In this document: piece after piece, positions 36,900 through 40,842 of the stretch
Layout of the letters: every line of letters begins with the position of its first letter
Numbering within the stretch: the stretch's first letter is position 1
From: Herpetosiphon geysericola
GTDB lineage: Bacteria > Chloroflexota > Chloroflexia > Chloroflexales > Herpetosiphonaceae
Reading direction: 5' to 3'
DNA length: 64,000 nt
Assembly: GCF_001306135.1 (NCBI RefSeq)
Contig: NZ_LGKP01000032.1
Span: 1-64,000 of the forward strand
The notes under the pieces: generated by a model
What the model was told of the DNA's origin: nothing
The model's database searches: none
What the model saw: only the letters and a program-made list of their open reading frames with translations
Translations under genes and position numbers: made by a program

Positions 36900-38309
36900 A
36901 TGCAGCATGGACGACGTTGGTGTTCGGTGGTCGGCCTTTTGGCTCTAGTCCTTTTCCCCGTTATTATCCACGCCCAAGAACCACAAGCGATTCCCGCTAA
37001 GAATCAATTCAATCCGCCAGCCCATGATCCATTCGGTGTAACGACGACCAACCAAACAAACCCCAAGAGTTCTAACGAGCCAGATATTTATGGCGCTTTA
37101 GCCAGCGGCAGCGCTGCCCAATGCGGTAGTGGAATTACAAATTGGACAACGACCTCAGCTGCGTTGATTCCGATTGTCAGTTGTAGTTTGACCTTCTCGG
37201 AGCCTGGCTTTGTCTATCTGGCTGCTTCGGCCTCGCTTGGCATTGCTAGTGAAAGTAGCAGTTATGAAGCATACTTTCGGCTGGGTGTCGATAGCACCAG
37301 CGGCGATCCTGGCACTGAGCGTTGGCTCAATATTTATACCGACAGTAGCGATGGCACCGATAAAAACCTAGCGGTCTCAAAGATTGTTGGGGTTACGGCG
37401 GGAACCCATAATTTCTATTTTCTTGGTGCGCGCTTCTCAGCAAGCGGTACGGTCAATCTTTACAATCCAATTTTGAGTGTGCTCTATTTTCCAAATTCAA
37501 GTCCAATCAAAGCCTGTAACGCCAACCTCAATGGCAATTGGACAACCAGCAGCGAGACCTTAACCGAAATTAACAGTTGTAGCTTGAATTTACCCCAAGC
37601 TGGCCATGTTTACATGAACGCCAATGCCTCTGCTTCATTTGTCAATCAAGCCTACGAAGTTGAAACCCGCCTGGCAATTGATACAACCAACGTCGCCGGA
37701 AGCTATCGCTGGACAAATATTGAGAGCGATACAGGCGATGGGACTGATGAATCGGTGGCTACCAGCCAGCTGATGCCAGTGACCAGTGGCACGCATTCGT
37801 TTAAGTTCTTGGCAGGGCGCAGCGCTGGCACAGGCACGGTCAATTTGTTTGATCCTTCGTTGAGTATTATTTACTTTCCAGCAGGAGCAGTTAATGCAGT
37901 GCGCTGTGGTCAAGGCGGCGCTGGCAGCTGGAGCAACGCGATTAATACATTTTCGACCTTGGCTTCGTGTTCGATGCTCACTGGCAATGGCGTTGTATTT
38001 ATGGATGGTAACGCCTCAGCAGGATTAAACAGCGCTAGCGGTGCTGCTTGGGAAGGCTTGTTCCGCTTCAGTATTGATGGGACTGGCCTAGCAACCACCG
38101 ATCGCTGGATTAATGTCTATCCTGATAGCGGCGATGGCACTGATCGAGTGATCAATAGCCAAGGCTTAGCCTTGCTCTCCCAAGGTGTGCATAGTTTTGC
38201 CTTTACTGGCCGACTTTATGCAGGCACAGGCACTGCTCACGTCTATCGGCCAGCGCTGATTGTGCTTGCTTCGCCAACCAAGATTTTCATCCCAGCGGCA
38301 ATTAAATAA
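36900..38309 (+). CDS. Secreted protein with three tandem beta-rich repeats
   Basis: 469 aa: signal peptide (about 1-25, cleavage after IIHAQ), a 40-residue low-complexity linker, then three repeats of about 125-130 residues (near 75-205, 208-335, 340-462). Each has the order: Cys near the start, a W-x5-8-L-x4-5-CS segment, G-x-V-(Y/F)-(L/M) with a following A-SA, then RW-x-N-(I/V)-Y-x-D-(S/T)-x-DGTD, V-x-(A/S)G-(T/V)-H-x-F, and GT-x-(N/H)-(L/V). Two cysteines per repeat could form a disulfide. I know no named family. The DGTD segments suggest calcium-stabilised lectin-like or jelly-roll domains, which is inference. SD AGGAGG. Confidence 0.8.
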   Translation: MQHGRRWCSVVGLLALVLFPVIIHAQEPQAIPAKNQFNPPAHDPFGVTTTNQTNPKSSNEPDIYGALASGSAAQCGSGITNWTTTSAALIPIVSCSLTFSEPGFVYLAASASLGIASESSSYEAYFRLGVDSTSGDPGTERWLNIYTDSSDGTDKNLAVSKIVGVTAGTHNFYFLGARFSASGTVNLYNPILSVLYFPNSSPIKACNANLNGNWTTSSETLTEINSCSLNLPQAGHVYMNANASASFVNQAYEVETRLAIDTTNVAGSYRWTNIESDTGDGTDESVATSQLMPVTSGTHSFKFLAGRSAGTGTVNLFDPSLSIIYFPAGAVNAVRCGQGGAGSWSNAINTFSTLASCSMLTGNGVVFMDGNASAGLNSASGAAWEGLFRFSIDGTGLATTDRWINVYPDSGDGTDRVINSQGLALLSQGVHSFAFTGRLYAGTGTAHVYRPALIVLASPTKIFIPAAIK

Positions 38310-38321
38310 TCGGCTAAAAGT

Positions 38322-38356
38322 AAAACGGCTGAGGTGGTTGCCTCAGCCGTTTTTGT
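38322..38356. terminator. Bidirectional terminator between convergent genes
   Basis: Stem AAAACGGCTGAGG / CCTCAGCCGTTTT with a 6-nt loop. T-runs follow on both strands (TTTTTG on +, TTTTAC on -), between the repeat protein and the 626-aa gene. Confidence 0.9.
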
Positions 38357-38358
38357 GT

Positions 38359-40239
38359 TTATTCGTCGTCAGCGTCGAAGTTGTTACTATCGTTGCTGGT
38401 TTCGTCTTCTGGTGGTGGGAAGTAAATGACTGCCGCTTCCTCGACGAGGAAATCTTGCTCTTCGGCCAATTCGCCCAGCAAATAGCTGCGGGTTGCTGGC
38501 CGTTGGACATTGACCCCCAAGAACAGATCATCGATGCTTAGCTCGAAGCCAGCGCGATCGCCTGGGCGTGGTTGGCCAACTTGCTCCAACACATAGCCAG
38601 CGGTTGTGGCTAAGCGGCGGCGTTCGCCCGACGTCAAGACCTTCATGTTCTTGAGCCGTGGCAAGCGTTCTTGGCTGGCAATCAAATCGTTATCAGCATC
38701 GCAGTAGAAATTGTGCTTAACGAAGGCATAGCGGCCTTTTTTATCGTCTTGTTGCAACAACTTCACTTCAGCGCCGCTGGTTTCTTCATATTGCAGCGTC
38801 CAAACACTTGGGTCATCGGTTGCCGAAAGCGTAATCAACGCGCCAGGCACCAAATGTTCCTTGAAGAAATCTTCGAGGCCATGCAACCAGCCACCGCGGT
38901 TGGCGGTTGGGTAGCGCAATTCAGCCAAGTAGAAACTATAGTGCTGTGGCGATTCGATCCGCAAAATGGCCGTGCGTTGTTCTGGCAACAATGGTTGTGG
39001 CAACAAGGCCTTCAAGGCTGCATCGTAGGGCAATACGCCGTATTCCCATTCGAAGAAGCTCAAGAAGCGGCTGAGTTGGCGATTTTGCTTAATATCAGCG
39101 GCGCTGGTTTGGCTCAAGCTATCATCGAATTGCGGAGTTTCTTCGAGGAAGCTATAAAACTGACCAAGCTCGCTGGTTTTCAAGCGTTTGGTGCCAACTG
39201 CTGGCAAGCCTTTGGCGCTCCACAAGCGTGCGCCTTGCACCCCAACAAACTCGAAATCTTTTTCGCGATTCAAGCGATAATTCAAGGCAAAGCGGAAGGT
39301 GACATAATCGTTATCGCGGGGATTTCGATAGTACACATCGCTCAAAATTGACGTATCGGGCATTGGCTCGCCTTGTTCCACGATATACTCGCGGATGCGG
39401 CGCAAATCGCCTTTGCTGAGAGTTGGGATATTTTCTTCAGCAAAATATTCATCACCAAAGGCCACAATCCGGCGCAATGGGTCATTATCGATTGCTTGCG
39501 ATAAAGCTGCTTGAATGCTGTTGCCATGCTCGGCCAAAATTGCTTCGACCGATTGGGCAAAATCAAGTGCTTCGCCGTTTGGCAGAACCAACGAGGTTGA
39601 GTTGGCAACCGGAGCTGGAGCTGGCTTTTCAACAACGATTGTTGGCGCAACCGTGGCTGGCGCAGCTTCGACTGGTGCAACAACTTCTTCGAAGGTTTCA
39701 TCCTCATCAGCGTCATCAGTGGGGCTAGCCAAGGCTGGCGTGATGGGATTGATAATTTCGCCTTCTTCGCCAGTTGTTGGCGAGCGTTGCTGCCAATAAT
39801 CCGAGATAAAGACTGGCTCAATCGTGGTTAAAGCAGGGCGAGTACGGGTAATCACCACGCTCAAATCATCGATTGGCAAGGGATTTTCTGGCTCGTGCAG
39901 CCGTTTGGCAAAGCTATGGCGTGTATCGATTTGAGGCTCGGTGTAGTAGCCGAGGCGGGTTGTGGCATAGACCACTTGCTCGCCCTCGTCAATGCGCCGA
40001 AAAATTTGGCTATTGGCTTCAAGGGCGGCGCTGATGCTGGCTTCTAAGGCACTGGCATCAACCCCATCTTGGCTGGCGATAAACGCTGCAAGATTGGCTA
40101 CGGTTTGGCGAACCGGAACATTTTCGGGAAAAAAGGCACTTTGCAGCATCATCACATTGAAGGCACGCTCAGCCAGCGTTTGCTGCTCGCTGCTACCATT
40201 CCATGTTGGTTGAGCCGGTGCATTGGTTGGACTACTCAT
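38359..40239 (-). CDS. Large protein of unknown function with winged-helix-like segments
   Basis: 626 aa, cytoplasmic, no membrane helix. Residues about 20-95 (LAERAFNVMMLQSAFF ... FRRIDEGEQVVYATT) look like a winged-helix or HARE-type domain. Residues about 130-210 are an acidic, Ala/Pro-rich linker. A second unit near 295-345 (ILSDVYYRNPRDNDYVTFRF, then DFEFVGVQGARLW) has the same helix-helix-strand outline. Residues 425-530 are beta-rich, and the last 25 residues are Asp/Asn/Glu-rich. I do not recognise the family. It is coupled by an ATGA overlap to a 52-aa gene upstream. DNA or RNA-polymerase binding is a guess from the domain outline. Confidence 0.7.
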   Translation of the reverse strand: MSSPTNAPAQPTWNGSSEQQTLAERAFNVMMLQSAFFPENVPVRQTVANLAAFIASQDGVDASALEASISAALEANSQIFRRIDEGEQVVYATTRLGYYTEPQIDTRHSFAKRLHEPENPLPIDDLSVVITRTRPALTTIEPVFISDYWQQRSPTTGEEGEIINPITPALASPTDDADEDETFEEVVAPVEAAPATVAPTIVVEKPAPAPVANSTSLVLPNGEALDFAQSVEAILAEHGNSIQAALSQAIDNDPLRRIVAFGDEYFAEENIPTLSKGDLRRIREYIVEQGEPMPDTSILSDVYYRNPRDNDYVTFRFALNYRLNREKDFEFVGVQGARLWSAKGLPAVGTKRLKTSELGQFYSFLEETPQFDDSLSQTSAADIKQNRQLSRFLSFFEWEYGVLPYDAALKALLPQPLLPEQRTAILRIESPQHYSFYLAELRYPTANRGGWLHGLEDFFKEHLVPGALITLSATDDPSVWTLQYEETSGAEVKLLQQDDKKGRYAFVKHNFYCDADNDLIASQERLPRLKNMKVLTSGERRRLATTAGYVLEQVGQPRPGDRAGFELSIDDLFLGVNVQRPATRSYLLGELAEEQDFLVEEAAVIYFPPPEDETSNDSNNFDADDE

Positions 40240-40394
40240 CGCCCTTCCTCCTCAACCACCAGCGAGCGCAAAATTTCGACATATTTCGCGGTGATCGCTT
40301 CTAACGTTTGAGGCTGGTTGGATGTCCGCAACCATTGGATCAGACGTTCCAAGCCAGTTTCACCGAGTCGAATTGATTTAACATCAATTGGCAT
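40236..40394 (-). CDS. 52-aa protein coupled to the 626-aa gene
   Basis: The frame starts ATG at 40394 (MPIDVKSIRLGETGLE...) and ends TGA at 40236, overlapping the next start codon as ATGA. Inside it, GAGGAGG stands in the right place as ribosome site for the downstream gene. The peptide is predicted helical with a central RLIQWLRTSNQPQTLEAITAKY and an acidic end. No own strong ribosome site is seen. The promoter with TATAAT at 40506-40511 lies about 110 bp upstream. Function unknown, presumably linked to the 626-aa protein. Confidence 0.6.
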   Translation of the reverse strand: MPIDVKSIRLGETGLERLIQWLRTSNQPQTLEAITAKYVEILRSLVVEEEGR

Positions 40395-40505
40395 ATCGGT
40401 CTGTGTTCTCCACCAAGCCCCAAATTGCTAGGGCATGGTTCTAATAAAGAGTCATTACAGTAGGCGCAAATGGTTATGACCCCATCTGGCGATGCGGTAA
40501 CGGCT

Positions 40506-40514
40506 ATTATACCA
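40506..40514 (-). promoter_or_regulatory. Extended -10 promoter of the 52-aa/626-aa operon
   Basis: TGG-TATAAT on the - strand: a perfect -10 with the extended TGn element and no good -35 at 17 bp. It predicts a leader of about 105 nt. Confidence 0.6.
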
Positions 40515-40626
40515 TACAACCGCTGATTGCATGCGGAATCAAGCTAACACCACACCAACTCTGTTCGATGCTCTATGGGTACTGGTTCATCCCGTTAACC
40601 ATCGCAGGGAAGGTTTTCTATCGATT

Positions 40627-40693
40627 CACCACCCTTCCGTCCCGCCTCAAGGCGGGAAACGCAGGGGGCTTTAATCCCCCTGCACCCCCTCAA
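40627..40693 (+). repeat. Two-hairpin repeat element, copy 1
   Basis: CACCCTTCCGTCCCGCC-TCAA-GGCGGGAAAC followed by GCAGGGGG-CTTTAAT-CCCCCTGC and ACCCCCTCAA. It contains two stem-loops of 6 and 8 bp. A second, inverted and partly decayed copy is at 57128-57193. The rest of the 40.40-40.89 kb spacer holds the promoter at 40506, repeat tract J and no gene. Confidence 0.8.
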
Positions 40694-40751
40694 GGACAAT
40701 CCGCGACCAAACTGCATCCATTGATGAACCTGCGGATAGGTGGGGGACAGT

Positions 40752-40842
40752 AAAAACCGACCCTTGGAATGCTGCTGTTGTTAATCCAATAAACCAGTAC
40801 ATCTACGCTCTATGTTCTTTGCTCTATGTTCTCATCCTAGCG
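40752..40842. repeat. Modular repeat tract J
   Basis: GTAAAAACCGACC, then AATCCAATAAACCAGTACATCTACGCTCTATGTTCTTTGCTCTATGTTCTC. The AATCCAATRAACCARTACATCTAYG module is shared with tract M (58985-59010). Confidence 0.8.

Follow-up and report, generated by a model that had tools for sequence, protein, structure and literature searches.

Two overlapping genes on the reverse strand of a 64,000-nt stretch of the Herpetosiphon geysericola genome (contig NZ_LGKP01000032.1, positions 1 to 64,000; hereafter the window) encode proteins of 52 and 626 amino acids. The pair is real and more important than first stated: these are class-wide core genes of the Chloroflexia and have a fused counterpart in other Chloroflexota classes, a distribution that an earlier note on this DNA had missed, and the large protein carries an unsuspected, predicted B3-type barrel. 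We infer that the pair makes up a phylum-level core factor of the Chloroflexota that acts on nucleic acid, with transcription or the organisation of the chromosome as its likeliest setting, and give this reading a probability of about 0.5. One would not expect a bacterial protein of housekeeping type to have the B3 fold of plant development regulators, and such a protein would be another place to seek the origin of plant B3 domains.

The gene pair and its flanking signals

The 52-aa ORF (40236-40394, reverse strand) is followed by the 626-aa ORF (38359-40239, reverse strand), which overlaps it, the ATGA at 40236-40239 holding both the stop of the first and the start of the second. The earlier note had described the pair and its ATGA overlap, and its coordinates, strand, lengths and overlap all proved exact; it had also recognised no family, and no family in Pfam, NCBIfam, PHROG or PADLOC was found to cover the pair. 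About 111 nt before the small ORF is an extended -10 element (TGGTATAAT, 40506-40514, reverse strand; letters checked), which had been proposed as the promoter. This element is conserved in class loci, as an exact TGnTATAAT occurs at most 300 nt upstream in 11 of 42 loci, a set that includes close relatives, against 0.09 expected from shuffles. A generic -35/-10 scan gave no site at this position (40506-40514). At the other end, a hairpin of 14 pairs with T-runs (38322-38353, strand given as ".") lies between the pair and a convergent gene and is likely the shared terminator of the convergent genes; it is listed for the forward strand, and we infer its use on the reverse strand. The convergent neighbour itself (36900-38309, forward strand) encodes 469 aa with a signal-like start and, by eye, about three similar repeats.

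Domain layout of the large protein

AlphaFold models of the window protein (mean pLDDT 84.6, pTM 0.63) and of a distant relative (mean pLDDT 87.8, pTM 0.74), whose alignments share no sequence, both show a winged helix, a barrel at the centre and a helical part at the C-terminus. In the window protein, encoded throughout on the reverse strand, a predicted N-terminal winged helix (residues 14-100; 39940-40200; fold-search Z up to 8.4) is followed by an acidic linker with a net charge of -16 and low pLDDT (residues 101-227; 39559-39939), mostly disordered, and by a middle helix and winged helix (residues 228-345; 39205-39558). Within the latter, residues 268-344 match winged helices at Z 6.9-7.4, and the whole segment is conserved with relatives from other classes (hhalign probability 99.0). 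Next come the predicted B3-type pseudobarrel (residues 385-489; 38773-39087), found in the two separate models, and a C-terminal helical, winged-helix-like part read from the secondary structure of the model (residues 537-607; 38419-38631), for which the profile match between classes has a probability of 81.5. The protein ends in an acidic tail of net charge -8 (residues 608-626; 38362-38418). The two winged-helix-like segments of the earlier note, for which structure prediction had been set as the test, thus appear in the model at residues 14-100 and 268-344, with winged-helix Z scores mostly below 8 in the fold search of the window protein, and both the linker and the tail that it had described as acidic are present. 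The note had held a confident match to a known enzyme family to be incompatible with its proposal, and none was found. When profiles were searched by sequence against solved structures, chance matches alone were returned (best E 0.24 and 0.27).

The acidic tail had been likened in the note to that of RNA polymerase delta factors. If the protein were a delta-like, RNA-polymerase-associated factor, the winged helices would bind polymerase, and nucleic acid would face competition from the acidic linker and tail. The strongly acidic character of the protein (net -44 for the window protein as a whole), with its linker and tail, fits this proposal, as does the fact that the relative's middle winged helix matches the RNA polymerase delta structures 8x6g (Z 7.4) and 9a6y (Z 7.0); however, both scores fall in the range that the tool states to be unspecific. 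Unlike delta, a protein with a HARE-HTH domain and an acidic tail, the large protein has several extra domains and no sequence match to it. The 43 class members show four Pfam families at E 0.1, none of them PF05066 (HARE-HTH), which turned up in a single one of the 36 relatives with an E-value of 0.14. Further, the acidic tail is not conserved, its net charge varying from -15 to +2 across the class, and no polymerase core genes were recognised next to the pair in the loci read. We therefore regard a delta-like role as unlikely.

A predicted B3-type barrel

The B3-type barrel at residues 385-489, which the earlier note had missed, is the best-supported domain of the predicted structure. Its top fold matches are plant B3 domains, ARF1 (Z 10.3, 2.7 A over 102 residues) and FUS3 (Z 10.0), and the barrel of the relative (residues 305-403) matches FUS3 (Z 10.7, 2.6 A over 98 residues), ARF5 (10.6) and VAL1 (10.6). 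The likeness to plant B3 domains thus extends over about 100 residues at Z 10-10.7 and rmsd 2.4-3.0 in two models, with modest Foldseek E-values of 2.8e-3 for the window protein and 3.3e-2 for the relative. Between classes the barrel profiles match with a probability of 98.0. At the level of sequence, the barrel of the other classes has a weak profile similarity to nine plant B3 sequences, confined to the C-terminal half (score 29.2, against a maximum of 18.2 in 100 shuffles), and the B3 profile of the class itself scored 19.1 against plant B3, which is at the 95% level of the shuffles (maximum 22.1). No match of PF02362 to the genome of the window was found at E 1 or below, and B3 is absent from the Pfam families listed for the 43 class members and the 36 members from other classes. 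Given this weak sequence support and the lack of a PF02362 match, the large protein has a B3-type fold by prediction, one that is not filed in PF02362. It differs from plant B3 proteins in being bacterial, in placing the barrel between winged helices, in having no Pfam B3 match and in being acidic in the class.

The B3 fold is mainly known from plant transcription factors and from the recognition parts of bacterial restriction enzymes (PMC4081073, PMC6599366). Among open-licence papers, our literature search found neither a B3 domain in Chloroflexi nor a report of this protein.

The bacterial B3 structures matched by the barrel are the restriction enzymes LlaJI, BfiI, NgoAVII and UbaLAI, which would fit a recognition subunit, derived or orphan, from a restriction or defence system. 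LlaJI.R1 is matched at Z 8.8 and 8.9, BfiI at 7.2 and 7.8 and NgoAVII at 7.0, which is lower than most of the plant B3 matches. Defence genes are usually patchy, but the large gene is universal in the good genomes of the class, and there is no PADLOC match. No match was found in plasmids with the window protein or the relative as query, nor in phages and viral contigs with the other-class relative or its profile. Unlike the restriction enzymes, the large protein has no match to a nuclease family, none being among the Pfam matches of the large protein, the class members or the relatives; absence from the fold-match lists is no proof of this. A restriction or defence origin is therefore highly improbable.

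Fold searches with the relative also bear on a translation- or RNA-associated role, in which the winged helices and an extra small beta domain of the relatives would bind RNA or the ribosome. Foldseek returned elongation factor P (6rji and 3tre, probability 0.98-0.99) and the C-terminal winged helices of SelB (1lva), and the nucleotide conservation of the pair is comparable to that of the S12 locus (see below). However, the E-values of these matches are 0.3 and worse and the barrel fits DNA-binding domains far better, so that we consider this role improbable.

Charge of the barrel

Domain charges and conservation were determined on the 43 rows of the class alignment (A1) and the 36 rows of the alignment of other classes (A2), the latter being without three of the 39 other-class ORFs found. 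The net charge of the barrel is negative in all 43 class sequences (-10 to -2, mean -6.1) and positive in 33 of the 36 sequences from other classes (mean +5.9). For comparison, the plant B3 domains used as a yardstick range from -1 to +11, and one paper describes an extensive region of positive charge where B3 domains bind DNA (PMC9391945). The putative DNA-arm loops, placed by motif only, read FEWEYG and RYPTxNRGG in the class and PHxRAG and WVVR in the other classes. The acidic barrel, together with FEWEYG at the equivalent of the first DNA arm, argues against ordinary B3 DNA binding in the Chloroflexia, and canonical DNA binding by the class barrel is doubtful; of all the evidence, the barrel charge speaks most strongly against simple DNA binding there. 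Now acidic in this class, the barrel may be a contact site for a protein partner, or may touch nucleic acid solely at the conserved RxPxxNRGG loop. A bolder and less probable version of our proposal is a vertically inherited phylum-level factor built on a plant-type B3 barrel outside restriction, in which the basic form would bind DNA, the acidic form of the Chloroflexia would be a protein-contact module and a fused helix-turn-helix would have become the separate 52-aa subunit. If true, the B3 domains of plants would have a bacterial source or sister outside restriction.

Distribution and gene neighbourhoods

Searches located the large protein in 148 of the 158 class genomes, including all 93 of good quality (completeness of 90% or more, contamination of 5% or less), and in 59 of the 60 nearest genomes. 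Relatives at 90-97% protein identity are in H. giganteus, H. llansteffanensis and H. aurantiacus. Across the phylum, a single-sequence search matched 55 of 251 genomes, the class profile A1 matched 87 of 300 and the other-class profile A2 matched 139 of 399. Outside the class lie 74 of these 139 genomes, among about 322 such genomes; most of the other-class genomes are, at a guess, Anaerolineae. Three of the 74 match the N-terminal half only, reaching roughly residue 260 in the other-class form (G263:C6:50639-51373, G228:C6:32670-33422 and G480:C45:22996-23745), suggesting a split gene or a version without the barrel. A scan of species genomes with short exact peptides of one protein gave 20 loci, Chloroflexota by title except for one MAG labelled Gracilibacteria. 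The phyletic profile thus shows a pair that is conserved through the class and has relatives in other Chloroflexota classes. The earlier claim that the pair is special to its group holds in that it is restricted to the lineage as far as testable, but it is not special to Herpetosiphon, being class-wide and present in other classes. Core genes found in every good genome of a class and unseen by family libraries are uncommon and usually hint at lineage-specific basic machinery.

The relatives in other classes are 520-600 aa long and equivalent to the C-terminal two thirds of the large protein, and the homology between the two groups spans about 360 residues (probability 99.8). A second conserved gene, of 140-150 aa, immediately follows the large one in 39 of the 40 loci from other classes; the 40th has no intact large gene. 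Locus L160, which has no intact ORF, was dropped. In several loci this gene overlaps the large gene by ATGA (for example L126:5030-5482). Its product has no significant Pfam match and possibly a winged-helix C-terminus, and it was found in the class in only one of 100 genomes, by a weak match (E 8e-4 over 43 residues).

Within the class, a HEAT-repeat gene (Pfam HEAT_2) is present in 28 of the 36 stretches read, in 20 of which it was called immediately downstream, and is usually followed by genes that we read as PIG-L-like, FemX-like and MurE-like. These neighbours do not point to transcription. The conserved downstream order could instead indicate a cell-wall or divisome-linked role, in which the domains would be pure protein-interaction modules cotranscribed with the HEAT, FemX-like and MurE-like genes, and the acidity of the domains in this class is in keeping with it. 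However, in Herpetosiphon the HEAT block lies elsewhere in the genome (in that of the window intact, on contig 12) while the pair itself stays intact, and the other-class loci are without this context. A cell-wall role accordingly seems distinctly improbable.

The small protein and its fused form

The small gene was found in 89 of 90 loci examined, a number in which the same genomes are included more than once, and in the one remaining locus (L048) the contig begins within the large gene. Searching the DNA upstream of the large gene with an iterated profile identified the small gene in 86 of the 90, and a search of the whole locus in three more. The spacing of the two ORFs ranges from a 4-nt overlap to gaps of more than 100 nt. 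Over profile positions 14-48, the small protein aligns with the large protein of other classes at a score of 32.8, compared with 15.3 for the best of 60 column shuffles, and with the N-terminal segment alone at a probability of 93.9; in the distant relatives it thus appears as an N-terminal fusion. This N-terminal segment is in turn similar to the middle winged helix of the window's class, over the first half of that domain (probability 80.8). From the segment alignment and this likeness, the small protein is read as a wingless helix-turn-helix half-domain, separate in the Chloroflexia and fused in the other classes.

The pair would then be two pieces of one Chloroflexota core factor working on nucleic acid. 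The large protein would arrange winged helices around the B3-type barrel, and the small protein would act with it as a detached helix-turn-helix piece, which in other classes is fused to its N-terminus. The 52-aa and 626-aa proteins would bind each other, and their complex would act on DNA or on the transcription machinery. The split and fused forms of the small protein offer a ready two-subunit test.

Nucleotide constraint and the leader

Compared with the three most distant Herpetosiphon genomes, the large gene has a dN of about 0.05 and a dS of about 0.45, and the small ORF has no nucleotide differences from five other Herpetosiphon genomes (six genomes identical). Both ORFs are coding and under constraint. 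The small ORF was considered as an ultraconserved element, which we rejected, as the S12 locus of the same genomes behaves alike: the longest identical runs are 158-351 nt at the S12 locus versus 175-183 nt here. Because of this similarity, we take the unchanged small ORF to reflect strong constraint or codon bias rather than a special element. The low dN/dS, together with nucleotide identity at the level of ribosomal protein S12, indicates an important and probably well expressed gene.

A 5' leader of about 110 nt (40395-40505, reverse strand) is well conserved within Herpetosiphon, unlike the DNA upstream of it, which is unalignable in the more distant species. Leader and small ORF together (40236-40505) are almost frozen in nucleotides across Herpetosiphon and have a fold z of -2.45. 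They could hold an RNA or autoregulatory signal, although conservation at S12 is similar. An Rfam scan gave no match at the leader or the pair and one sub-threshold match outside the pair. This match, to whalefall-1 RNA (E 0.032), overlaps a repetitive intergenic element with a GC-rich hairpin core that lies directly upstream of the pair (40590-40760) and has 46 matches in the genome of the window.
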